This document shows, piece by piece, positions 21,000 through 35,506 of a stretch of 35,506 bases of DNA (its first letter is position 1; each line of letters starts with the position of its first letter). The translations under genes and the position numbers were made by a program. Source of the stretch: Candidatus Endomicrobium neocapritermitis (GTDB lineage Bacteria; Elusimicrobiota; Endomicrobiia; Endomicrobiales; Endomicrobiaceae); the NCBI GenBank assembly GCA_009778325.1, contig WRJZ01000026.1, forward strand, positions 1-35,506, written 5' to 3'. The notes under the pieces are model-generated. The model saw only the letters and a program-made list of their open reading frames with translations, made no database searches and was not told the DNA's origin.

Positions 21000-21116
21000 T
21001 TAACAATTAATAATTATTGTGTTTTCGCTTTGCGAAAACTTCTTAATAGGTTTCGGCAAAGCCGAAACACCGACATTATTATTTATTAATTATTAATTGT
21101 TAATTGCCGTTAATAG
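20981..21116. repeat. Palindromic intergenic element E8 between convergent genes
   Basis: The core is nearly identical to E6 over some 80 bases: GTTTTCGC-TTT-GCGAAAAC (21021-21039), TCTTAATAG linker, GTTTCGGC-AAA-GCCGAAAC (21050-21068), then ACCGACATTATTATTT. Left arm units AATTAAT, AATGAAT, AATTAAC, AATTAAT; right arm inverted and ending ATTGCCGTTAA. It contributes the stop codons of both the radical SAM gene and the MORN gene. Confidence 0.9.
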
Positions 21117-22468
21117 TCTGCCGTAAACTCAATAAATTTATCTTCTGAAAATGTAGTGCTTTTGCGCATTTTACCGTTTTTAAACTCTATCAGATATAAA
21201 GGCCTGCGGTTTGTTTCTGACGGAGAGTAATATCTCAGCTGCCCGACCGGTTCGCCTTTTGAGAAATAACTTTCAAAACAAAGCTGCCCGTTTTCATAAA
21301 AACTCTTAAGCGACCCGTGCAGAAGATTGTCCTGATAGCCGGCCTCTGATATAAGTCCGCCGTCTTTATTGTAAATTGAAGAAATGCCTTCGAGTTTGCC
21401 GTTTTTATAACGGTATTCGGCAAGTTTTTCTCCGGTTGCATAATACATTATTGAAATTCCCGTCAGCTTGCCTTCGTAATAATTATCGATAGTTATTATT
21501 TTACCTTCCGGAGAATAAGTTTTAAAATCATCGTAAGGCATATTGTTTGAAAATTTTCCTTCATATTTCACCTGGCCGTTTTTATAATATGTTTTATACA
21601 CGCCGTTAAGCCGCCTGCCTTTTTCAAAAAACCTGATTTCATTTATCATTTTTCTTGATTCGTTCAAATGAGCCATAGCAGGCCCCTGCCACACTATGCT
21701 TATGGTTCCTTGTCTTTTCGAAAAAGCCGGTCTCGCGGAAGCTTCATCTTCATCAATATGCTGTATTTTGTCTATTACTTTTCCGTTTTTATAAAGCAGC
21801 GTGCTTACTTCTCTTCCTTTTTCGTCATAATACTTAGCGTAACCTTCAAGTTTACCGCGGCTGTATGCCATTTCCGATTTTACTGAACCGGAAGGATAGT
21901 ATTTTATGTTTTCGCCTTCCAAAACATTATCCTTATATATCGCCGCTTCCAAAAGTCTGTGCGCTTTATCGTAAAGAAAAGCCGGACCGTTTAGTTTATT
22001 ATCCGTATAGCTGTATTTGTAATAGTTCCCGTTTTCCAGATATACATGCGCCGGCCCTTCAACTTTTCCGTCTATATAAAAAACTTTTTCGGCAATGTTT
22101 CCGTTTTCATAATATTTTACTCCTATGCCTTTCAGAACGCCGTTATAATAATCAAACTCACACTTCTTCCGGCCGCCCGGATAAAAGCCTATAGCTCTTC
22201 CGTGTTTTTTATTATCTTTATATCTCCATACGTACAAAAGTATTCCTTGATCGTCAACCTCTTTAACCTCGCCGTTGACTGTAAATCCGGAGGAAAATTC
22301 AGAATTTCCTTTAACTATTTTTTCCCTGCCTATTTCCGAATTATCTTTATCATAATAAATATAGCCGTATTCTTTACCGGCAAAATACTTTTTTTTGGTA
22401 ACGGCCGCGTAGGCAGACTGAGAAAACAAAACGGCGGCAAGCGATAATATAAAAATCTGTTTTATCAT
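21110..22468 (-). CDS. Secreted MORN-type (YwqK-like) repeat protein
   Basis: 452 residues. Signal peptide MIKQIFILSLAAVLFSQSAYA, with cleavage after AYA, then about 14 MORN_2-type repeats of 20-24 residues (YYENGNIAEKVFYIDGKVEG, YYKNGQVKYEGKFSNN and similar). Such repeats form extended beta-sheets on bacterial surfaces or in the periplasm; databases often call them antitoxin YwqK, which is not supported here because no toxin adjoins. Its ATG overlaps the proB stop (ATGA), so translation is coupled with proB, although no functional link is evident. The C-terminal DY and stop are in element E8. Confidence 0.9.
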   Translation of the reverse strand: MIKQIFILSLAAVLFSQSAYAAVTKKKYFAGKEYGYIYYDKDNSEIGREKIVKGNSEFSSGFTVNGEVKEVDDQGILLYVWRYKDNKKHGRAIGFYPGGRKKCEFDYYNGVLKGIGVKYYENGNIAEKVFYIDGKVEGPAHVYLENGNYYKYSYTDNKLNGPAFLYDKAHRLLEAAIYKDNVLEGENIKYYPSGSVKSEMAYSRGKLEGYAKYYDEKGREVSTLLYKNGKVIDKIQHIDEDEASARPAFSKRQGTISIVWQGPAMAHLNESRKMINEIRFFEKGRRLNGVYKTYYKNGQVKYEGKFSNNMPYDDFKTYSPEGKIITIDNYYEGKLTGISIMYYATGEKLAEYRYKNGKLEGISSIYNKDGGLISEAGYQDNLLHGSLKSFYENGQLCFESYFSKGEPVGQLRYYSPSETNRRPLYLIEFKNGKMRKSTTFSEDKFIEFTADY

Positions 22469-23642: not shown

Positions 23643-26600
23643 TTACGCCGATTTAAGCATCATACTTACGGCAAGCTTGTTTACCGAAACGTTTACGGCA
23701 TCTTTTATGAATTCACTTGCCGGTTTATGTTCGGCAAGAGCAAGAATTTTAATAATTTCTTCTAATGCCGATTTTTCATCGTCCGCTGACTGTAAATTGC
23801 CGTTCACAGGGATTCCGTATCCGAAATTTATTTCAGAAAGATGGGCTCTCATCAACAGTTCTACATTTTTAATTATTTCGTTTATTGTCGCGCCGTTATT
23901 TTGCAGCGTATATATGTAAAGCGCGTAATCTGTAAAACTTTTTGCCGCCTGTCCGCCGTACTCTTCTTCAAGCATTGTTTGAAGCATTTCATCGGGAGTC
24001 ATACCGCTTAACTTTGCGGCGGTATGTACGGCAGGTTCTTTTTCGCCGGATGCTTTTGCGTCTTGCGGCATTGATAAATCTAAAAACAGAAGAGTTCTGA
24101 GCAGCTCAGATTGCTGAGTATCGCTTAAACCGTTGTCCTTTCTAAAAGACGAAAGGAGCGACGCTTCAATTGCCCCGCGCAAATATCCCGCCGCTGCATA
24201 GATTCCGTTCTTATTGTTTCCGGCAAGCGAATCTTGTATAAAACGAAGCTTTTTTATTCCGGGCTCAGCTTCCAGAAAACCGACAAAATGTTTTGCCGCT
24301 TCTTCATCAATTTTTATGCCTTGCCTGAGAGATTTGCCGTTTTGAAGTTTGATAAGCTCCTGAACAAGAAGCTTATTTGTATCGGTTCCGGTTTTAAGTT
24401 CGTCTTTGCTTTGAAGTCCGGTTTTGTATCCTTCAGCATATGCTTCATACGGAGAAAGAGTTCTGGGCAGCGAAAGGATTTCCGTTATTTTGCTCATTAT
24501 TTCTACATGAACGCTCTTGCCGTCAGCGCTTATTATATTAGTTCCGGCAGACACTCCTATGTATCCTGCGCCAAAAGCAACGGCTTTTTGTATATCGGCA
24601 AAATATTTCTCTGCATCTGATTTATACTCTTCATCCAAAGGATTTGCATCCGAAGAATTTTCATCCGAAGGATTTATATCCGCCCATATTTTCTGCTTAA
24701 ACTCTTCAAGATTTTCGTTAAGATTGGCAACGCTTAAAGCCGTTATAATGTCAAGATTTGACGCATTTTCAACAAATTCTCTGACAGCCACGGCAGACAA
24801 CAATGAGGAAGGAAGCCCTGCCATAATAATAGAATCGCTTTTTACTTTTCTCATTTGCGCGGAAACAGCGATGAATAAGGAATTGTTATTTATCATTTTT
24901 TCAGAAGCAAAATTCATTCTTATTCCGTCAAAACCGACGCTTTGCCAGAAAAGCGCGGCCTGTATTATATCGTCCCTTTTCATTTTGCCGGATATGTTCA
25001 GCGAAAGCACAACTTTTCCGCCATTTTTATGTATTTCTTTAAGATTTTTACTTATTTGAGACGTTAAAATAAATTGCGCGAACTGTTCTGCCGGCGAAAT
25101 ATCGTTATCTTTTAAATGTCTGTTTGCATTAACAAATTTTTCAAAATCGGATTTGACTTCCGCGCTGATTTCGTTAAACGCTTTTTCTGAAATCGCAAGC
25201 GATTTTGCCCTTACATCCTCTATATCGCCGCCGTATATGTTTATTTCGCTTTCGCTGATTTTTACGCCCGCAGCCATTTGCGCCGCCGAAGCCCAGTCGA
25301 TAAGCGCGATATCGGCTATGGCGGGATTATCGCTCATTACGGCATCTTCAAGAAGCATTATTGACGAAACCGACTGCCTCATCCTATTTTCAAAATAAGA
25401 CGAAAGCCCGTTTACTCCGTAAGAAGATAAAGGAGCCTCGGAAGCGCTGATAAGGCTGAATAACTTCGAACTTATTTTTTCGCCTACGATAATTCCCGAT
25501 CTGCTCTTTGATTCTTTATCTTTCAGAACAAGCCTTTTGAGCACTTCAAGCATAAAAGTTCTTGTCTTATTTTTATTTCCAGATATGTCATAATAATTCA
25601 GTTTACCGTCGTTTCTTCCGGCAGCCTCCGCTGATTTTCGTATATCTAATGCGTCAGGAAATATTTTTGTGACCGCTCCGGCAAACTCAGACATATTTTT
25701 ACCGTCAAAAGCGAATGCTTTTAAATCAAAGTCATATTCTTTTCCTATCATTCTAAAAAGACTCTCGTTTGAAATAAAATTTATAGCTCTTTCAAGGAGC
25801 GAAATACCACTCGTTAAATACGCGAATTTTCCTTTAACGACATAATCGTTTTGAAGCCTGTTTAAAACTTCTTCGGAAGCTTTAACATAAAATTCTTTCG
25901 GATTCATTTTCGTTTCAAATTTTAACGGAACCATAGCAATGACGGGAATATTATTTTCCATACGCAGGTATGCTTCCGCCGTAACCGCTGCTCCGTTCAT
26001 GTCAACATTGACATAACACAGTCTGTTACGGTCATTGGCAACGCCTTTTTTTCCTATTCTTAAAGCCAGAGGCTTTACGCCGAAATCTTTCAGTTTTGCC
26101 AGCCTGTCGGAATCTATATTAGAGTCAGACATTGCGGCGTCTACGAAAATTTTTCCGTAAAGCATGTGCCCGCCGGGCGACTCGGCTCTTTCGGTTTCAA
26201 GAAGCCATAGTTCGTTTTCGGATATGGATAAAGCGTTTTTCATCCGCTCAAGAACAGTTAAAGAGCCCAGCGCGTTTTTCATTGTTTCGCCGTACACGCT
26301 TACAACAGCCTTACTTTGCAAATGACTGATAATTTGCGAGAAAAAGTCTTCAGAGCGCGGATTATTAATTATTTTAAGCCACAAGATAAGAGAATCCGCA
26401 TTTATCGCTCCGGCATTTTTTATCTGTTCCATTACATAATCGATGTCCGGATTTTCAGCGGCGGATATCGCCGCAAGCAGAAGAACGGTAAAAGCTTTTT
26501 GGTCGCGGTTTAATCCTTCATCTTTTAACATCCGTTCCAAAACCGGCTTTAGCGCAGGGGTAATGTGTTTTCGGTCTTCATTTAGAAATCTGAACGCGGT

Positions 26601-29600
26601 ATTAATCCTGTCATGCATAAACGACGCGCTTGATTCTGCCGCCCTGATACTTTCTTCTATTCCGCGCGCATATTCTTCGGAAAGTTGCTCCGTCGGATCA
26701 TTTTCTTCAAGCAGTTCTTTAACATACGTCGACGGCAATATTCTTACAACGCCGTGTTCGGACCCTCTCACAAAAAAAGCTGTTTCTCCGTCAAAAGCAT
26801 TAGCCTGGCGGCTTATTTTCAAAACGCCGTTTTTGTCTATAATACCGTCCATAGTATTGAGATATACCAACATACGCAAATGAAAAGGTATCAGCATAAA
26901 TGAAAACGGATTGGCTTTATATCCTAACTCTTCATATCTGCTGTCGGCAAAAGACTTCAAAGCTTCAGGCTGAGTAAAAAGAAAAACATGTCCTCCGAAA
27001 AAACTCGCAATACCCCTGACAAAATATTCAGGCAAACTCGTAATATACACCTTGCTGCCGGGTGTGTAGGCTAGAGAGTTCAATACTGCTTTATCAAGAA
27101 CCAGTGTAGTGTTATTGTGCAGCTGCGCAGATCCGGAAACAGACAGCTGGTCATCAATTATAATCGGCTCCGCTGTTTTTGCCGGTTCTCCGGACATGCC
27201 TGCGGCAGTATCCGGTTCTTCATCAAACCATGTATCCTCATCGGCACTTGCCGCAGCAGTTTTCTCTCCTTCTTTCTTGGCAGCAAGAGTACTTAGAAGA
27301 CTCTCAAATTTCCTCACAATATTATTCTTTGCAGCTTCATTCTCCTGTATTGAAGCGTCCCTGTAATCTTTCGAGGACGCTCTGATTAGCAATGTCAACT
27401 CAGTATCCGCACCGGGAAGATACTGAGCCTGAAACGCTCTTATCGCATTGTGCCCTCTTTTTGAATCATTGTATTCATTCTTAAAAATTCCGGATAATCC
27501 CGTCTCTTTATGTTCGTCAAAAGGCTCTTTCTTAATAAACCTTTCTCTTTTTTCCGGATCCGTAACCGCAGATTCTATATCTTTAACCTTTATCGCTCCC
27601 TCGGCCAATGCCCAGTGGACAAACTCGTGAAATAACGCAGTATCGTTTGAAAAAAGATCTTTTCTTAAAGCTATTATACCTTCATGCTTTATATTAAACT
27701 TATTAGAAGAAAAACCTCCGATTTCGGCTGTTTTATTTTCTCTGTATCCGCCGGATTCCGCATATGCCGTTTCTATTTCAAAAAACTTTATTCTTTCAGC
27801 CGCTTTGCTGCCGGCGGCTTCCAAAAGAGTTCGTATCGCGCTTTGGAAATCTTTATTTGTATTTTGTTCCGACAAATTGTTCAAAACCGATTTAATCCTT
27901 TCCCTCATGCCAATGCCATCGATAAACCGCCCGCCGATTTCCATTTCACTCAGGCCTGCATCAGAAATCAGAGAGACTGAAAGTTCCGCAACGGCAGGAT
28001 TGGAGGCATTTGTTCCGGCAGTGTAAACCACCGGAGCCGAAAACTTCCCTATAAACCCGCCGGCATTGCCGGATTCGGGCATTGCGTGCGGTGCGGAATC
28101 TACGGTTAAAGATACGGACTTTGTTTTAAAATCATAAATATAGTATGCGGGGTGTTTCCCATAGCCGTAGTAATCGTACATAACGGTAAATTCGACGGTA
28201 TTGCCGGTTACTGAATTTATCGTAACTTCCGCACTTTTTACAGGCTTGTACAAAAGTCTTTCCGCCGCCGAATTTGCTTCTGAGTCTTTTTCGGCAGAAA
28301 CAACAATGCCGTTAATAAGTCCTTCTATTTCTCTTAACGGAATATTGTTTATTGCCGCGCGGTTTATTGTGGACTCTATAATTTTCGGAAGCGCTATTTG
28401 AATAGGTTCGCTTAATACAGGCATTTGCTTTAACGCGCTTGTAAAAACCTGCGTGTATTGCGAGATTACGGAAAAATACAAGTTTTCCGCTTTTTCCGTG
28501 TTTCCGGTAACATTCGGCGTAATTATGATAAAAGACGTTTTATTTTCAAGAAGTCGTTTTTTCAATCCCTCGCTGTGAAATCCGCCCGTTATGGCAATTT
28601 TAATATTGGCGCCTTCAGAGGCATAGTCCATAAGGGCTTTTAAATCGGTAAAATTATTTGAATCCGAATACTCGGTTCCGGCGGTTTCATTTGAACATGA
28701 CAGCAGTGAAAGGAACACATCGTCTCTTTTTATATTGTTAGAGTGATATTTTTCATAATCGGATAATTTTTCTTTTAAATTAGCCAGATGAATGTTTTTC
28801 CCTAAATATTTCGACACTGTTTCATCAAATTTTTTTCTGTTATTAAGATAATACGCATAATCTCCGGATGTTATTTTCGTATTAAAAAAAACGTCTAAAA
28901 CTTTAATGAATCTGTTCAGAAACACGACATCCCTTTCATATCCTGTCCTGGAAAGAGATATGCCTATATCGTGAATAAGTCTGTCTTCTTCCGCGGCAAA
29001 ATTTAAAAGATTCAAATCACCGTTTGTTTTTAAATATTTGAAAAAAGTCGCCAGATTATTCAGCTTATACTGTTTGCAAATACCGTAGCTGTCGGACAAT
29101 GCCGCAAAAACCGGGAATAAGTCTTCCGTATTTGAAAAATCATTGCTTTTTGCGGACAGCTCATGATAAATACCGTAAGGAAGAATTTCTTTTAAAACAT
29201 TTATAAATATACGCAGCTCATCTGTAATTTTTCCGTAATCTATTCCTTTTTCATTTATAAGAGAGATATACTTATGCACATTTGCGTAAGCGTTGATGTT
29301 AATTCCCGCTTTAGATGAAAGCTTGCTCAAAATCGAATAGTATTTTTTCGCGGATATTTTGCCTTTTGAAAAATCACCGTTAAACTTATCAAGCCTCAGC
29401 AAATCCGAATTGTAATACTCTTTTTTTACGGACTGTATATCGTTTTTAAGACCTTTAAGCTCGGCGTTTATTTCTTCACGGTTATTGAATATATTTCCCA
29501 GAAGGAGTATATTTTCAAAATATAAATCGCTTTTATCCAAAGCTTTGATTATATCGGCTTTACCTGATTTTATTGAATAGTATTCCGCCCCGCTGAGCGT

Positions 29601-30005
29601 TCCGTTCACAAGCAAATCTTCAACGACAAGTTTCCCGAGCTCGCTCGTTCTGAAATTTATAAACTTATCCGTGGAAACGTCCGACACGGCGCCTTCAAGG
29701 TATATTTTATCAAAGCCGTATTTTTCCAGAGCTTTCAAAATCGCGGCGATATTTTTCTGGGTTTCGCCGTGGCAGTGTAAATCCTGAATATTTATGACTA
29801 TATCTTTACTGTTAAAATTTTTCGCGTACGTGACTTTTCCCGCAGAGAAAGGAATGAACGAATCGGAAGATTTTATAATCTCGGCTGCGCTGTCATGATT
29901 ATAGCCTGCATAAATTATCTGTCCGAAAACGGAAGAAGCAATAAAACACGCCGCAGTCAATACTGCGGTAATTTTTGTTTTCATGATGTAAGTTTGTTTT
30001 TTCAT
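23643..30005 (-). CDS. Giant exported multidomain protein with GGFH module and HEFVH metallopeptidase-like site
   Basis: 2120 residues. N-terminal signal peptide or anchor (about 8-33, ITAVLTAACFIASSVFGQII). First module, about 60-515: IQDLHCHGETQKNI (73-86), IYLEGA (101-106) and AITGGFHSEGL (471-481). The spacing of H77/H79, E104 and H477 recalls the EreA/ChaN/TraB hydrolase-like superfamily, but I cannot confirm membership. About 580-690 is a beta-rich stretch. At 791-800 LFHEFVHWAL gives an HEXXH zinc motif (793-797) after ITLEG-like text, suggesting a metallopeptidase. A Glu/Ala-rich linker follows near 905-945. About 1660-1830 has barrel-like strands (KVVLSLNISG, GFDGIRMNF, SIIMAGLP, GAGYIGVSAG). 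Function unknown. The alternative start M8 is equally possible. It follows the second giant gene on the same strand. Confidence 0.8.
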   Translation of the reverse strand: MKKQTYIMKTKITAVLTAACFIASSVFGQIIYAGYNHDSAAEIIKSSDSFIPFSAGKVTYAKNFNSKDIVINIQDLHCHGETQKNIAAILKALEKYGFDKIYLEGAVSDVSTDKFINFRTSELGKLVVEDLLVNGTLSGAEYYSIKSGKADIIKALDKSDLYFENILLLGNIFNNREEINAELKGLKNDIQSVKKEYYNSDLLRLDKFNGDFSKGKISAKKYYSILSKLSSKAGININAYANVHKYISLINEKGIDYGKITDELRIFINVLKEILPYGIYHELSAKSNDFSNTEDLFPVFAALSDSYGICKQYKLNNLATFFKYLKTNGDLNLLNFAAEEDRLIHDIGISLSRTGYERDVVFLNRFIKVLDVFFNTKITSGDYAYYLNNRKKFDETVSKYLGKNIHLANLKEKLSDYEKYHSNNIKRDDVFLSLLSCSNETAGTEYSDSNNFTDLKALMDYASEGANIKIAITGGFHSEGLKKRLLENKTSFIIITPNVTGNTEKAENLYFSVISQYTQVFTSALKQMPVLSEPIQIALPKIIESTINRAAINNIPLREIEGLINGIVVSAEKDSEANSAAERLLYKPVKSAEVTINSVTGNTVEFTVMYDYYGYGKHPAYYIYDFKTKSVSLTVDSAPHAMPESGNAGGFIGKFSAPVVYTAGTNASNPAVAELSVSLISDAGLSEMEIGGRFIDGIGMRERIKSVLNNLSEQNTNKDFQSAIRTLLEAAGSKAAERIKFFEIETAYAESGGYRENKTAEIGGFSSNKFNIKHEGIIALRKDLFSNDTALFHEFVHWALAEGAIKVKDIESAVTDPEKRERFIKKEPFDEHKETGLSGIFKNEYNDSKRGHNAIRAFQAQYLPGADTELTLLIRASSKDYRDASIQENEAAKNNIVRKFESLLSTLAAKKEGEKTAAASADEDTWFDEEPDTAAGMSGEPAKTAEPIIIDDQLSVSGSAQLHNNTTLVLDKAVLNSLAYTPGSKVYITSLPEYFVRGIASFFGGHVFLFTQPEALKSFADSRYEELGYKANPFSFMLIPFHLRMLVYLNTMDGIIDKNGVLKISRQANAFDGETAFFVRGSEHGVVRILPSTYVKELLEENDPTEQLSEEYARGIEESIRAAESSASFMHDRINTAFRFLNEDRKHITPALKPVLERMLKDEGLNRDQKAFTVLLLAAISAAENPDIDYVMEQIKNAGAINADSLILWLKIINNPRSEDFFSQIISHLQSKAVVSVYGETMKNALGSLTVLERMKNALSISENELWLLETERAESPGGHMLYGKIFVDAAMSDSNIDSDRLAKLKDFGVKPLALRIGKKGVANDRNRLCYVNVDMNGAAVTAEAYLRMENNIPVIAMVPLKFETKMNPKEFYVKASEEVLNRLQNDYVVKGKFAYLTSGISLLERAINFISNESLFRMIGKEYDFDLKAFAFDGKNMSEFAGAVTKIFPDALDIRKSAEAAGRNDGKLNYYDISGNKNKTRTFMLEVLKRLVLKDKESKSRSGIIVGEKISSKLFSLISASEAPLSSYGVNGLSSYFENRMRQSVSSIMLLEDAVMSDNPAIADIALIDWASAAQMAAGVKISESEINIYGGDIEDVRAKSLAISEKAFNEISAEVKSDFEKFVNANRHLKDNDISPAEQFAQFILTSQISKNLKEIHKNGGKVVLSLNISGKMKRDDIIQAALFWQSVGFDGIRMNFASEKMINNNSLFIAVSAQMRKVKSDSIIMAGLPSSLLSAVAVREFVENASNLDIITALSVANLNENLEEFKQKIWADINPSDENSSDANPLDEEYKSDAEKYFADIQKAVAFGAGYIGVSAGTNIISADGKSVHVEIMSKITEILSLPRTLSPYEAYAEGYKTGLQSKDELKTGTDTNKLLVQELIKLQNGKSLRQGIKIDEEAAKHFVGFLEAEPGIKKLRFIQDSLAGNNKNGIYAAAGYLRGAIEASLLSSFRKDNGLSDTQQSELLRTLLFLDLSMPQDAKASGEKEPAVHTAAKLSGMTPDEMLQTMLEEEYGGQAAKSFTDYALYIYTLQNNGATINEIIKNVELLMRAHLSEINFGYGIPVNGNLQSADDEKSALEEIIKILALAEHKPASEFIKDAVNVSVNKLAVSMMLKSA
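24634..24684. repeat. Short 15-bp tandem repeat inside the giant gene
   Basis: About three and a half degenerate 15-bp copies with the core (T/G)ATCCGAAG/AGGATTT encode the acidic run NPSDENSSDANPLDEE (about 1778-1793). They fall in a loop of the barrel-like part, an expandable in-frame repeat. Confidence 0.65.
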
Positions 30006-30017
30006 TTCATATACCGT

Positions 30018-30113
30018 TTTGGAAGCTTAGAGAGCTTTGAGGCTTAGAAGTTTGGCAAAGACAAAAGCCGTTGCTAAACTTCCAAGCTTCCAAACTTCCT
30101 AACTTCTGCCGTA
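30018..30113. repeat. Palindromic intergenic element E9 (octad arms)
   Basis: Left arm GGAAGCTTAGAGAGCTTTGA, GGCTTAGAAGTTTGGCA; right arm TTGCTAAACTTCCAAGCTTCC and AAACTTCC-TAACTTCTGCC, imperfectly inverted. GCTTAGAAGTTTGGCA here matches GCTCAGAAGTTCGGCA of E7 at 14 of 16 positions. The centre AAGACAAAAGCCGTTG is like the centre of E7. It separates the two giant genes. Confidence 0.75.
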
Positions 30114-30115
30114 TT

Positions 30116-33100
30116 TTACGCGCTGGCAAGCAATATATTTAACTGCTTTATTTCAACTCGCGTATTTCTTGGCAATAACTTTCCAATGCCGATAACTACC
30201 GGCGCGAAATCAGACATAAGCGCAATAAGCGCGTTTGCCGCAAGAAGAGTTTTATGCCCGTTTGCTGACGATGGCGCTTTTTGTTTAATCTCGTGCAGTA
30301 TTTTTGTAGCAAGATCAATGTACCCGATAACGCCGGCATAAGCCATATATATAAACAATGTGTCTGCATCCATTTTCGAAATGTCAGCCGTTTCCGTATC
30401 AAAAACGCTGTTTGTTATAATTCCGAATGTATTGGCAACAAGCGCATACCGTATTTTGTCATCAGTGCTCAAAATGCCGTAGTCAAGCGATATAATAAAA
30501 TTCGAAGCGGCAGACTTAATGTCTGATTTTTGTTTATCGCTTATTGCATTTTTAGCATCGCCGTAAACAATAGCCAGAGAAGCGAAATCTTCCAAAGAGC
30601 GCGATTTCTCATATGCGCTTAAAACATAATTGCGCGAAATATCGGCATTGTTAAAAAGTATTATATCCCCGATATGAAACTGCTTTTCCTTTTGCGCGGC
30701 CAGCTGCGAATTCAACTGTTCTATAATGTATTTTTTTGAAGAAAGAAGGAAATCATTTCTTTGGGCAACATTAAAATTGTTAATGCCTATATTTTCAGGC
30801 GACGCAATAGTGTTAAGAAAATTCTTCAATTCCGTATCTGCCGGAAGGTCGCTAAAAGCGACGTTCAACTCTTGCATACGTTCGTAAATTGTATAAGAAG
30901 GCTTACTAAAAGCTTCTTTAATCTTACTTATAAAAGCCGGTTCCGATAAAGCGTGATCGAACAATTTTCTGTCGTAAGACAGAGCCGCGGCAAGAAAATC
31001 GTCGCTTGTGCCGGAGACAATCTCCGAAAGCATTCTTTCAAAATATACATTTTTTGCCGCGCTGTCGTTAGGAAATGCTTTTTTATAAAATTCTTCCGTA
31101 TTGAAATCCGTATCTAAAACAAAAGTTTCCGGTTTCAACCGCGAAGATGTTAAATTCCCTTCTTCTCCGGTTTCCAAAGACTCCGTACCGGCGCTTTGTT
31201 TAGCCGTAATTTCAGAAATATCCGTTATAAGTTTCTCAAAACCGTCATAGTCTAAATTTTCAATGTCATATTTTCCGGAAAACACTTCTTTTAACAACTC
31301 TTTGCCATATTCAAGTATTTTTTCAAATTGTTTATTCGTGATTTTAGAACTTTTAACAAACTTGATTGTTTTTATGTCAATGGCTTCTATGCCTAAACCG
31401 GAATATATCTTTTTTAATTTTTCAAAACCATAATACTCTAAATTTTCAATGTTATATTTTCCGGAAAACAATTCCGTCAACAGTTCTTTGTCATATTTCA
31501 ATATCTCTTCAAATTGTTTATCCGTGATTTCGGAATATTGAACAAAAAGAATCGTATATCTGTTAATGACTTCTATATTTTCGCCTGATTTCGCATATAT
31601 TTTGTTTAATTTATCAAAACCGTTATAATTTAAATCTTCAATGGTGCACTTTTCTAAAAACACTTTTTTTAACAACTCTTTGTTATCCTTCAACATTGTT
31701 TTCAATTGAGTAAGGTCGATTTCATGATTTTTAACAAAATCAATCGTATATCTGTTAATGACTTCTATATTTTTATCTGATTGCGCATATATTTCGTTTA
31801 GTTTTTCGAAACTGCCATAGTCTAATTTTTTAATGTCAAACTTTCCGGAAAACAATTCCGTCAACAGCTCTTTGTCATATTTCAATATCTCTTCAAATTG
31901 TTTATCCGTGATTTTAGAATATTGAACAAAAGCAATAGTTTCTTTGTTAATGACTTCTATATTTTTATCTGATTGCGTATATATTTCGTTTAGTTTCTTG
32001 AAACAGCCGCTGTCTAAGTCTTTAATGTCAAATTCTCCGGAAAACAGTTTATTTAACAATATTTCGTCACATTTCAATATTGCTTGCAGTTGATTTTCTA
32101 TTATTTGCAAACTTTTATCTAATAAATTTGAATATATTCCGTTTAATCCCGCTAAACTGTCGTAGTTTAATATAATAGTATTTTCTTCGGAAAACGCATT
32201 TTCTAATAACTTTTTGTCATATTTCAATATTTCTTCAAATTGCTTGTCTGTGATTTTAGAATCTTGAACAAAAGCGATCGTTTTTTTGTTAATGGCTTCT
32301 ATATTTCTGTCTAATTTCACATATATTTCGTTTAGTTTGTCAAAACCGCCGGAGTCTAATTTTTCAATGCCATATTCTCCGGAAAACACTTTTCTTAACA
32401 GCTCTTTGTCATATTTCAATACTTTTTCCAATTGAGCATGCGTTATTTTAGAATTTTTAACAAAATTAATCGTATCTCTGTTAACGACTTTTATATTTTT
32501 ATCTAATTGCTCGTATATTTCGTTTAGTTTCTTGAAACAGTCTTTGTCTAAGTCTTTAATGTCAAACTTTCCTGAAAATACTTCTTTTAACAATCTTCCG
32601 TCATATCTCAATATTTCTCTCAATTGAGCAAGCGTGATTTTAGAACTTTGAACAAACTTGATTGTTTCTTCGTTAACGGTTTTTATATTTCTGGCTAATC
32701 TCACATATATTTCATTTAGCTTATCTAAACAGTCTTTGTCTAAGTCTTTAACGTCAAATTCTCCGGAAAACACTTGTTTAAAAAATGGTTCGTCATATTC
32801 TAATATTTTTGGCTGATTTTCTATCGTTGGATAACTGCTATCTAAAGCTAAAGGCATTTCATTTAATTCCGCTGACTCGTCATAAACAGTTTCTATAGTT
32901 TTAGAATATCGGACTAAAGCAATTATTTCTTTTTCGACGGTTTCTATATTTCCGTATGATTCCGCATATATTTTATTTAGTTTTTCGAAACTGTCATACT
33001 CTAATTTTTCAATGTCATATTTTCCTGAAAACAATTCTTCCAGCAGCTCCTTGTCATATTTCAATATTGTTTCAATTTGTTCATCTGTGATTTGAGGATA

Positions 33101-35506
33101 TTGAACAAAAGCAATCGTATATCTGTTAACGGCTTCTGTATTTTTATCTAATTTCACGTATATTCGGTTTAGTTTTTTGAAATCATTATAGTTGAATCTA
33201 ATAATATATTTTCCTGAAAACACTTTTTGTAAAAATTCTTTGTCATAGTCCAATATTTGTTCAAATTGCTCGCCTGAAATTTGAAGACTGTAAGTTATAA
33301 AATTAATTGTTTCTTGGTTAACGGCTGATTCCCCTAAAACCGAATATATTATTTTTAATTTCTCAAAACCGTCATTGTCTAAATTTTTAATGTAGCATTT
33401 TTTGGAAAGCAGTATTTCATACAGCTTTGATTTTTCATTTGACGCGATTAATGAACTTACCCGCCACCCCAGCTTTATAATAATTGCGATATAAGTATCA
33501 TAAACATCGTATAGAAAATTCACCGCTTTTCCGATATTGGAATCGGAAACCGAAAACTCCAATCTCCAAATAGCCGGCGACTCTTCTTTTTCTACATTTT
33601 CTTTGGATATTTTTACTATCTTTCCGCTTCCGCCGCTTATCAACAATTCTACAATATCGCCTGCTTTGAGCTCATTTGCTTTAACTTTTTCGTGTTTTAA
33701 TAAATTAATGTGGTTATCTAAAAAATTAACTCTCATACTCGGCACAAGAACCTTGCTTACTACGTATATTTTCCCCGCAGTTTTCGCTATTAGAGAAGCT
33801 AAATTATTACCGCCAATTTTAATTTCCTTCCGTTGTTTGGCGCCATTCACATTTATTATTTCATATATTGTTATTTCTTTATACTCCCAAATAGCTTCAG
33901 AGCTTTCATCTTCTACATTTTTGAGGGATACTCTTACTACCTTTCCGCTTCCGCCCTCTACCAGCAATTCTACAGTATCACCTGCTTTGAGCTCTCCTGT
34001 TTTAACTTTTTTGTGTTGTAATAAATTAATGCTGTTATCTAAAAATTTAACTTGCATAACCGGCATAAGAACCTTGGGTACGACGTATCTTTTTCCAGCA
34101 GCTTTCGCTATTAGTGAACCTAAAGCCTTTTGATGTCCAATCCAAATTTTCTTACGACCGTATTTAGTTATTTCATATACCATTATTCCTTTATACTCCC
34201 AAATAGCTGCAGAGTTTTCATCTTCTACCTTTTTTGGGGATATTCTTATTACCTTTCCGCCCTCTACCAACAATTCTACAATATCACCTGCTTTGAGTTC
34301 TCCTGTTTTAACTTTTTCATTTGTTGCTAAATTAACAACTCTGTTACCTAAAAATTTAACTTGCATTCTCGATTTAAGAACTCTGGGCACGACGTAGCTT
34401 ATCCCCTTATTTTCCGCTATAAGCGAAGCTAAATCCTTTTGAGCAATCTTAATTTCCTTCCGTTGTTTGACGCCGTTCACATTTATTATTTCATATATTG
34501 TTATTTCATTTATATTGTCATCAGCTATATTGCCTATCGAAGAAACGGGCATGTTTTCCAATATGCCGTATCTTACAAGCGCGTTATATACAGTGTGTGC
34601 AATAATAGAATATATTACGTTGTATCCCTCAACAGAAAATGCTTCAAATAAAATCCCCAACATCGGAACTGCCGGAATAAACATACACACCGTGTATAGC
34701 ACTGTCATTATGCCAAGCTTTGCCAAATCTTTCGATGTTAACTTTTTGTTAAATACTTTATGCAGCGCGACAAACAATATGCCGCTTATTGCCAAAGATA
34801 ACACCGGATTTATTGAAAATGACGCAACTATCATTACTGGCAGCAAGCCTCTGAATATAATCTCTTCCCACAACGGCGCGATAAGCACAGTATATACTTT
34901 ATAAACCATACTGTCTTTGTTTTTGAAAAAATCGTCTAGCAGTGAGGCAGGTTTAAACTTTTTTTCTGCATTTTGCCGCGTATGCGGCCAGATGATTTCT
35001 ATTTTTCCTTTTTTGCTAAACTCGAGTTCTATATCTTTTTCATTTGTTTTTATTTTCACTCTGTTTTCGCTTACTGTTTCTACGCTTATTTTCTCAATGC
35101 CTTTTTTTTCAACAACGTCTTCATTATAGGCTGCCACTATTTTTTCTATTATGTCTTTATAATCTTTTTTAGCATACAGCCTGCTTATGTCTGCCAATGA
35201 CGAAATCAGCTGAGATTTATCTCCTTTCACCAAATATGCTTCTAACGCGTATCCTTCTATATACCCGCCGACTATATCTGCTTTTCTTTGCTCGTTAAAC
35301 AATCTTTCGTACTTTTCTTCCGCCTCTTTTATTCCTCCGCTTATCTTGGGCGTAAGCGTTATTACGCCTAAGCCTTTTGAAATCAGCATTTCTTTTACTT
35401 CTTCGGTATGAAATCCTCCGGTTATTGCTATGGAGATATTTTTGCCTGGTTCAGAAGACAGCATATCTCCTCGGCCATACCTCTCACGGACGCCCATGGG
35501 GGGGGG
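30116..35506 (-). CDS. Giant membrane protein with CPBP protease domain, TGS-like repeats and a 63-residue repeat array (5' truncated)
   Basis: At least 1793 residues; the true N-terminus lies beyond the window, as the frame runs into the terminal G run. Order of parts (numbered from the ATG at 35497): SIAITGGFHTEEV (22-34), the end of the same module found at 467-510 of the neighbouring giant protein; a CPBP (CAAX-protease/Abi) intramembrane metalloprotease domain, about 195-315, with PLWEEIIFRG (E211, E212, R216), FVALH (H246) and AHTVYN (H301, N305); three units of about 105 residues (about 330-645) ending in VKTGELKAGDIVELLVEGG, resembling TGS beta-grasp domains; about twelve 63-residue repeats (about 680-1435); and a unique 358-residue C-terminal domain. 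All CPBP catalytic positions are present, so it may be an active protease. Function unknown. Confidence 0.82.
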   Translation of the reverse strand, partial: PPPMGVRERYGRGDMLSSEPGKNISIAITGGFHTEEVKEMLISKGLGVITLTPKISGGIKEAEEKYERLFNEQRKADIVGGYIEGYALEAYLVKGDKSQLISSLADISRLYAKKDYKDIIEKIVAAYNEDVVEKKGIEKISVETVSENRVKIKTNEKDIELEFSKKGKIEIIWPHTRQNAEKKFKPASLLDDFFKNKDSMVYKVYTVLIAPLWEEIIFRGLLPVMIVASFSINPVLSLAISGILFVALHKVFNKKLTSKDLAKLGIMTVLYTVCMFIPAVPMLGILFEAFSVEGYNVIYSIIAHTVYNALVRYGILENMPVSSIGNIADDNINEITIYEIINVNGVKQRKEIKIAQKDLASLIAENKGISYVVPRVLKSRMQVKFLGNRVVNLATNEKVKTGELKAGDIVELLVEGGKVIRISPKKVEDENSAAIWEYKGIMVYEITKYGRKKIWIGHQKALGSLIAKAAGKRYVVPKVLMPVMQVKFLDNSINLLQHKKVKTGELKAGDTVELLVEGGSGKVVRVSLKNVEDESSEAIWEYKEITIYEIINVNGAKQRKEIKIGGNNLASLIAKTAGKIYVVSKVLVPSMRVNFLDNHINLLKHEKVKANELKAGDIVELLISGGSGKIVKISKENVEKEESPAIWRLEFSVSDSNIGKAVNFLYDVYDTYIAIIIKLGWRVSSLIASNEKSKLYEILLSKKCYIKNLDNDGFEKLKIIYSVLGESAVNQETINFITYSLQISGEQFEQILDYDKEFLQKVFSGKYIIRFNYNDFKKLNRIYVKLDKNTEAVNRYTIAFVQYPQITDEQIETILKYDKELLEELFSGKYDIEKLEYDSFEKLNKIYAESYGNIETVEKEIIALVRYSKTIETVYDESAELNEMPLALDSSYPTIENQPKILEYDEPFFKQVFSGEFDVKDLDKDCLDKLNEIYVRLARNIKTVNEETIKFVQSSKITLAQLREILRYDGRLLKEVFSGKFDIKDLDKDCFKKLNEIYEQLDKNIKVVNRDTINFVKNSKITHAQLEKVLKYDKELLRKVFSGEYGIEKLDSGGFDKLNEIYVKLDRNIEAINKKTIAFVQDSKITDKQFEEILKYDKKLLENAFSEENTIILNYDSLAGLNGIYSNLLDKSLQIIENQLQAILKCDEILLNKLFSGEFDIKDLDSGCFKKLNEIYTQSDKNIEVINKETIAFVQYSKITDKQFEEILKYDKELLTELFSGKFDIKKLDYGSFEKLNEIYAQSDKNIEVINRYTIDFVKNHEIDLTQLKTMLKDNKELLKKVFLEKCTIEDLNYNGFDKLNKIYAKSGENIEVINRYTILFVQYSEITDKQFEEILKYDKELLTELFSGKYNIENLEYYGFEKLKKIYSGLGIEAIDIKTIKFVKSSKITNKQFEKILEYGKELLKEVFSGKYDIENLDYDGFEKLITDISEITAKQSAGTESLETGEEGNLTSSRLKPETFVLDTDFNTEEFYKKAFPNDSAAKNVYFERMLSEIVSGTSDDFLAAALSYDRKLFDHALSEPAFISKIKEAFSKPSYTIYERMQELNVAFSDLPADTELKNFLNTIASPENIGINNFNVAQRNDFLLSSKKYIIEQLNSQLAAQKEKQFHIGDIILFNNADISRNYVLSAYEKSRSLEDFASLAIVYGDAKNAISDKQKSDIKSAASNFIISLDYGILSTDDKIRYALVANTFGIITNSVFDTETADISKMDADTLFIYMAYAGVIGYIDLATKILHEIKQKAPSSANGHKTLLAANALIALMSDFAPVVIGIGKLLPRNTRVEIKQLNILLASA
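31205..33440. repeat. Array of about twelve 190-bp coding repeats in the giant gene
   Basis: Each unit encodes about 63 residues of the pattern KITDKQFEEILKYDKELL, then LFSGKFDIKKLDYGSFEKLN and EIYAQSDKNIEVINRYTI. Two units near 31460-31590 and 31845-31970 are almost identical at the DNA level over more than 100 bases; others are diverged or shortened (units near 32060-32230 and 32760-32940). Pure in-frame expansion, predicted all-helical. Confidence 0.9.
33565..34515. repeat. Three 320-bp coding repeats (TGS-like units) in the giant gene
   Basis: Units at about 34190-34515, 33885-34190 and 33565-33885. The first and third start with nearly the same DNA (encoding ITIYEIINVNG and KQRKEIKI), while the middle unit has YEITKYGRKKIWIG, so copies have been exchanged or duplicated unequally. 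Confidence 0.85.

Follow-up and report, generated by a model that had tools for sequence, protein, structure and literature searches.

What are the two giant proteins encoded at one end of a contig from Candidatus Endomicrobium neocapritermitis (Elusimicrobiota), and what are such proteins for? The window studied here is the whole of contig WRJZ01000026.1 (C26 below; 35,506 bp), one of the 54 contigs of a 2.38-Mb genome that we code G000. Two giant open reading frames (ORFs) lie at its end: P1, which is complete, and P2, whose N-terminus is lost (Table 1). An initial annotation, made from the sequence alone, described them as exported giants with a common head and divergent, effector-like bodies, and could match them to no described system. 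This description holds, and the heads in the window match no Pfam, NCBIfam or PDB family.

The architecture of the giants is well supported: they form one family with constant ends, a body that (in P1 at least) turns over fast, depletion of cysteine, purifying selection and enzyme domains, some of which are paralogues of the cell's own glycolytic enzymes. With moderate confidence we read the giants of Endomicrobiales and Elusimicrobiota as exported multi-enzyme payloads, which are addressed by a constant head and tail and probably act on or in other cells.

A common head in many Elusimicrobiota

The stretch shared by P1 and P2 matches at 46% over 46 residues (BLASTP, E 7e-7). As annotated, AITGGFHSE in P1 and AITGGFHTE in P2 are followed by a strand and then by TPNVTG and TPKISG, respectively. 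This GGFH module is indeed common to both proteins, but it is merely the last ~60 residues of a domain of ~450 residues, the head, which follows a signal-peptide-like N-terminus and is whole in P1 and cut in P2.

With the first 516 residues of P1 as query, about 17 head-bearing loci are found in G000 (E 1e-80 to 1e-17), whose ORFs are 1.6-9.0 thousand amino acids (kaa) long; a locus at first read as head-only proved to be another giant. Together these ORFs total 59,289 amino acids (aa), or 7.5% of the assembly, which is an underestimate for the truncated ORFs. By a profile search across the phylum, 69 of 341 Elusimicrobiota genomes contain the head, among them 40 of the 192 of high quality, in ORFs of up to 11.8 kaa, and when 11 genomes were re-scanned in full each gave 1-63 head matches, with a longest ORF of 13.5 kaa. 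Such a search, with a listing of the attached bodies, had been proposed as a check of the annotation, and the bodies turn out to be highly diverse. The sole named match of the P1 head (74% identity) is in Endomicrobia bacterium Th196P4bin33, which belongs to the same genus as G000 and is referred to below as the sister genome. A viral origin was considered and rejected: viral contigs contain no relatives of the head when searched with alignment A1, which comprises 16 heads, and alignment A3.

The giant family can be lost outright, since G294 (same family, genus g4; 1.6 Mb in a single, complete-looking contig) has no heads, while about 17-25 first-look candidates occur in each of its genus-mates G291-G293. 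In genus g3, where genomes are small, most members lack the head, and one head contains 5 in-frame stops (G253:C20:17189-18610), which is decay of the giant family in this genus. Genus g3 likely corresponds to the endosymbionts described in PMC11257099.

Signs of export and a constant C-terminal tail

The N-termini of the giants consist of basic residues, a hydrophobic core and small residues, in this order, and represent putative Sec-type signals. Further, the giants contain 2.0 cysteines per 1000 residues, while 83 other ORFs at these loci contain 12.1 (p 2e-7). Both features, as predicted from sequence, would agree with passage out of the cytoplasm.

The initial annotation overlooked that the other end of the giants is conserved too. 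Complete Endomicrobiales giants end in approximately [MILV][LM]x[AS]A, and the tail region comprises ~14 residues. The tail is present in all 13 complete giants of G000 and in none of the 72 other ORFs at the same loci (Fisher 1.4e-15). All 28 unique Endomicrobiales tails fit, with small variants: position -1 is Ala in 26 of them, and in all 28 position -2 is Ala or Ser, -4 is Leu or Met and -5 is Met, Ile, Leu or Val. Position -6 is mostly Ala or Ser, -7 often Arg or Lys, and -8 mostly hydrophobic. P1 ends in VSMMLKSA and P2 in LNILLASA.

A DNA pattern and the local ORFs served to test how exclusive the tail is; the DNA pattern is narrower than the protein motif, with Lys at -3 excluded. Genome-wide it has 36 sites, and among the frames followed, the ORFs of more than 100 aa that it closes are giants only; the site at C54:25607 is the end of the C54 giant. 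Other genomes of the same class have tail variants such as LLSAG and ILGAV. In other classes the terminal Ala alone persists, weakly enriched (11/13 versus 7/17, p 0.026).

The ssrA/tmRNA degron (LAA) and the C-terminal signals read by Tsp/Prc likewise consist of small hydrophobic residues. However, in the giant tail position -3 is variable, with Lys allowed, and Leu or Met is fixed at -4. An ssrA-like degron is rejected because of this position pattern together with the genome's own tmRNA tag, which appears to end in LLPIAA. The tmRNA itself, at about 1500-1905 of locus L145 (G000:C35:19742-20143), matches Rfam RF00023 and was missed by ARAGORN; its candidate reading gives an unusually long tag with the end ...MGFGLLPIAA.

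Bodies change quickly and carry enzymes

Though the head is widespread, the P1 body is confined to its own genus (3 of the 77 genomes of the family). Between P1 and its sister-genome orthologue, the head has a dN/dS of 0.13 and the body one of 0.24; the neighbouring proB has 0.05. The orthologue is longer (3221 aa), with ~1060 extra residues between head and body that include a CPBP module. As the CPBP module sits in P2 here and in the P1 orthologue there, modules move between giants. In addition, a paralogue on contig C30 of G000 carries head and CPBP in one chain. Downstream of the P1 orthologue proB and a YwqK-like gene are kept; upstream there are gatA/gatB-like genes and not P2.

The bodies of the sibling giants contain glycolytic and ATP-dependent enzymes, which had also escaped the annotation. 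A single chain on contig C17 contains phosphoglycerate kinase (PGK; 6e-133), adenylate kinase, a methyltransferase and phosphoglucose isomerase (PGI). The giants on C43 and C28 have a PEP-utiliser His domain followed by the ATP-binding domain of PPDK, the one on C31 has a phosphoglucomutase (PGM) domain, the one on C40 a SecA-like ATPase, and C52b combines GNAT with a SpoT/Mesh1-like HD domain. Fifteen giants from other genomes of the class contain PGI (4e-135), PGK, a glycogen debranching domain (1e-101), 4-alpha-glucanotransferase, glycogen phosphorylase, phosphoglucomutases I-III, PPDK, HD, GGDEF, kinases and an M48 peptidase.

The C37 giant carries a VWA domain and repeated AAA domains of the dynein/midasin type. 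It is an exported-type giant of ~6,000 aa (L032, G000:C37:1-20000), in which the VWA domain has MIDAS DGSGS and the AAA domains are of the AAA_5 type, with 6 Walker B motifs and 3 canonical Walker A motifs. A similar giant with three Walker A motifs exists in a genome of another genus (L111, G291:C1:31000-50900). Such a giant reads as a midasin-like layout in a bacterium.

Catalytic motifs are intact in most of the giant bodies examined. The PGK of the C17 giant shares 49% identity with the cell's own PGK, and its PGK part contains no cysteine; its dN/dS is 0.17, versus 0.06 for the stand-alone PGK, i.e. it is under purifying selection. Stand-alone PGK is present in 13 of the 13 genomes tested and stand-alone PGI in all Endomicrobia tested.

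In five genomes from two genera (G000:C31, G291:C3, G292:C46, G293:C21 and G296:C87), a stand-alone PGI gene sits upstream of a giant gene, no more than a few kb away. This neighbourhood is conserved and is a possible source of the captured PGI copies.

Does the head resemble TIKI hydrolases?

Judged by its residues, the head is likely, though not proven to be, TIKI-like (ChaN/EreA-like), because the order and spacing of its invariant residues match the TIKI superfamily, i.e. TraB/TIKI/GumN, ChaN (PF04187), EreA/B and the RRSP domain of MARTX. In RRSP a Glu-x-His is followed by a Glu 28 residues on, an essential Arg (Arg-4001) and, 29 residues later, a second His (His-4030) (PMC6254334). Invariant in the 16 heads of alignment A1 are Q-D-L-H, E-G, E103, N127, N-x-x-R-x-x-x-F, G-G-x-H and one Pro, and in 25 heads from other Elusimicrobiota classes QDxH, the Glu, the Arg and GGxH are invariant at ~20% overall identity. 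In the superfamily a D/E-x-H closes the first core strand; all 16 + 25 heads have this motif, with Asp replacing Glu. The invariant Glu of the 16-head alignment (E66) follows H39 by 27 residues, close to the 28 of RRSP. The Arg and the second His are 50 residues apart in P1; in C28, the shortest head, they are 29 apart, as in RRSP.

A predicted beta-alpha-beta at both ends would be a further resemblance to the superfamily. Giant ORFs of distant families reach the PF04187 cut-off of 27.7 bits (G008 31.2, G011 28.1 and G166 28.0 bits), and this profile touches 7 of the 25 distant heads at E<=1 (best 2.8e-4). The heads differ from TIKI proteins by the Asp, by a helical insert of ~320 aa between the halves and by their fusion to the N-terminus of giants.

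A number of observations weigh against this assignment. The heads of the window and of other Endomicrobia have zero PF04187 matches, and the window heads fall below every family cut-off; against Pfam, NCBIfam and PDB profiles the window-type heads give helical chance matches alone. When heads are aligned with ChaN or Ere sets by hhalign, the right motifs are in register, but the scores are weak (best E 0.003-0.007, with reversed controls at 0.08-0.7). In the structure prediction of the head, another check proposed with the annotation, the fold could not be modelled (AlphaFold pLDDT 41, from a 3-sequence alignment), and the order of elements alone, b-a-b, helices, b-a-b, agrees with TIKI.

Three other families were rejected. 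PAH_ZNF598 (13 of the 25 distant heads, best 5.6e-5) and DUF1722 match within the helical insert, and the strong phylum matches to TraB/GumN (PF01963) are separate proteins of ~300-600 aa, not heads.

What may the giants do?

From this architecture we infer how the giants might work, from export route and tail reading to head action and payload delivery. The signal peptide would bring the giant chain through the inner membrane, and a dedicated late step, be it outer-membrane export, anchoring or processing, might then read the free C-terminal tail. This reading may double as a completeness check, by which finished chains of thousands of residues alone would pass. The head could be a hydrolase at the envelope or at the target, possibly freeing payload modules, and the body would be a payload that does its work beyond the cell, most likely on neighbouring cells or in them. 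The last step is suggested by the PGK, PGI, adenylate kinase, PPDK, AAA and ppGpp-hydrolase-like domains, which depend on intracellular nucleotides or sugar phosphates. More tentatively, an undescribed export or delivery pathway of Elusimicrobiota may recognise the TIKI-like head and the free tail and send active glycolytic, glycogen-degrading and regulatory enzymes outside or into neighbours, as a form of extracellular or hijacked metabolism.

Several points speak against this picture. Neither a secretion machine nor a tail receptor nor a target cell was found, and it is puzzling that an exported protein should contain ATP-dependent enzymes, unless they are delivered into a cell. The giant PGK of G291 (L108) lacks the HLGRP motif, therefore not all captured PGK copies are active; such partly decayed enzymes suit structural reuse. 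Also, the sample code Th196 of the sister genome presumably stands for Termes hospes, a higher termite. Because that genome comes from a flagellate-free higher termite, a protist is unlikely to be the general target. The gut microbiota of higher termites is entirely prokaryotic (PMC7024585, PMC4660790).

The host of the sister genome also weakens the idea that the giants feed glucose-6-phosphate to flagellate hosts. This idea is weakened too by OPA/UhpC transporters being reported solely for Parendomicrobium and Endomicrobiellum (PMC11257099).

The most serious alternative is that the giants form a surface layer or stalk, in which the enzymes are folded beads or moonlighting binders and the ends serve as anchors, with no delivery; PGK and PGI on cell surfaces are known as adhesins. 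The repeats in P2, the poverty in cysteine and the partly decayed PGK of L108 would fit such a coat, and giant genes of Omnitrophota have been read as adhesins or coats (PMC10066038). However, the C17 PGK keeps its catalytic motifs under purifying selection, the motifs of PGI, PGM, PEP-utiliser, AAA and HD domains are intact, and the bodies scanned contain no adhesin, Ig-like or cadherin domains; we consider a coat less probable than a payload. That the N-terminal segment is a membrane anchor, with the bodies forming multi-enzyme complexes of glycolysis and glycogen metabolism in the cytoplasm, is less probable still. It would explain why giants contain several glycolytic and glycogen enzymes that are consecutive, with four activities in the C17 chain, and it would provide the cytosolic substrates that these enzymes need. 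On the other hand, the basic residues ahead of the hydrophobic segment predict a body outside, cysteine is depleted, the head would face the wrong side, and the genomes tested already have their stand-alone PGK and, in Endomicrobia, PGI.

A specific two-component surface processing system made of P1 and P2, as the annotation had it, is very improbable. The genes are adjacent and co-oriented with a gap of 110 bp, and both products have protease-like motifs, but they are two of about 17 paralogues scattered over the genome. Neighbourhood in related genomes had been set beforehand as the test of the pair, and in the sister genome, the one relative with a readable locus, P2 is absent beside the P1 orthologue, which itself contains CPBP. 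P1 and P2 are paralogues whose adjacency here is incidental; local duplication or insertion occurs, as another adjacent giant pair exists in G243. Finally, an artefact of assembly or gene calling, or a set of decaying pseudogenes, is refuted: contigs of metagenome-assembled genomes do tend to end inside the repeated heads, but uninterrupted frames of 1.6-13 kaa are found in many independent genomes, dN/dS is 0.13-0.33 and the ends are conserved. Payload delivery is the reading we favour over both a coat and cytoplasmic complexes.

Other features of the window

The features of P1 and P2 are listed in Table 1. The CPBP intramembrane protease that had been annotated in P2 is borne out: it scores 37.7 bits with PF02517 (cut-off 22.4) and contains all three motifs. 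The large helical repeat array is also found again, as is the HEXXH of P1. The latter is HEFVH on its own, without a family match, and is not classed as a zincin. The repeats annotated as beta-grasp do exist, as three beta-rich copies, but the beta-grasp label is unproven (AlphaFold pLDDT 45).

Table 1. Features of the two giant proteins in the window.
Feature	Position	Strand	Evidence
P1, exported-type giant protein, 2120 aa, complete	23643..30005	-	ORF call; sister-genome orthologue of 3221 aa
P1 putative Sec-type signal peptide (basic n-region, hydrophobic core, small residues); bounds approximate	29901..30005	-	Sole transmembrane-like window of P1 is N-terminal; other heads read alike
P1 head domain, TIKI/ChaN-like (likely), complete, aa 45-529	28419..29873	-	Alignment A1 of 16 heads; paralogues; phylum-wide search
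QDLH motif, D-x-H, putative catalytic His 1	29775..29786	-	Invariant in 16 heads; QDxH invariant in distant heads
YLEGA motif, putative catalytic Glu, 27 residues past His 1	29688..29702	-	Glu invariant
N-x-x-R motif, putative substrate-binding Arg	28719..28739	-	Arg invariant
ITGGFH motif, putative catalytic His 2 (GGFH module of the initial annotation)	28575..28592	-	GGxH invariant
P1 body	23646..28055	-	In 3/77 genomes of the family, all one genus
HEFVH (HEXXH) in P1 body, aa 793	27615..27629	-	Without family match
P1 C-terminal tail, ...SVNKLAVSMMLKSA	23646..23687	-	Tail comparison
P2, giant protein, at least 1796 aa, N-terminus lost to contig end	30116..35506	-	ORF call
P2 C-terminal remnant of head; AITGGFHTE at 35402-35428	35267..35506	-	Sequence; BLASTP versus P1
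CPBP/Rce1-like glutamic intramembrane protease domain in P2; EExxxR, FxxxH, HxxxN	34577..34906	-	PF02517 E 2.5e-9 and motifs
Three ~105-aa beta-rich repeats in P2, 62% identical	33551..34510	-	Repeat comparison; structure uncertain
Helical repeat array in P2, 11 copies, period mostly 64 aa	31211..33283	-	Repeat analysis
P2 C-terminal tail, ...RVEIKQLNILLASA	30119..30160	-	Tail comparison

At 21110-22468 the window encodes a YwqK/MORN-like repeat protein with a signal peptide, whose counterpart in the sister genome is kept downstream of proB and the P1 orthologue. A number of contigs break off inside giant heads, in a C run (window 35490-35506; C14, L041:1-20) or in a GACCA tandem repeat (C37, L032:1-100), which indicates that the heads break the assembly. 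The C run of C14 lies inside the N-terminal half of another head; this head fragment and P2 may be one gene.

Relation to known systems

Earlier studies describe giant genes as a common feature of Elusimicrobia and Omnitrophota (PMC11573180, PMC12057145, PMC10066038). The giant ORFs of Omnitrophota, Elusimicrobia and other PVC lineages are alike in being very long, poorly annotated, exported and many per genome, and those of Elusimicrobia were already noted as size outliers. However, these three studies describe no shared head, C-terminal tail or glycolytic content, whereas here the giants are one homologous family. Omnitrophota giants with mixed enzyme domains have been discussed as weapons or signalling proteins (PMC12419801), and in a large study of Endomicrobia genomes (PMC11257099) the words 'giant' and 'secret' are absent. 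We found no description of the shared head, tail and glycolytic payload in the open literature, a scope that excludes preprints and most subscription papers, so that priority is uncertain.

MARTX and other multi-effector exported proteins also combine several exchangeable enzymatic domains, including TIKI-like ones, in one exported chain. The giants differ from MARTX by a Sec-type signal peptide, a common N-terminal head and a short C-terminal tail, and by delivery being presumed here; those scanned have no match to RTX repeats or to the cysteine protease domain, and their signal is of Sec type instead of type 1 secretion. Chlamydia secretes the phosphoglucomutase CT295 by type 3 secretion (PMC9251005), and therefore the export of a housekeeping sugar enzyme can be real biology. 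There, too, such an enzyme acquired a signal for export and does its work beyond the bacterium. The difference is that CT295 is a single enzyme acting on intravacuolar glycogen, while here the copies lie inside giant Sec-type chains.

The giant genes of Elusimicrobia and related phyla have so far been size outliers without a function. With the giants of one lineage shown to be a single family with constant ends and exchangeable enzymatic bodies, the reader of the tail, the destination of the chains and the activity of the presumably exported PGK and PGI all become testable. Further, a defined C-terminal signal of 14 residues would provide a handle on the export machine and on further cargo.
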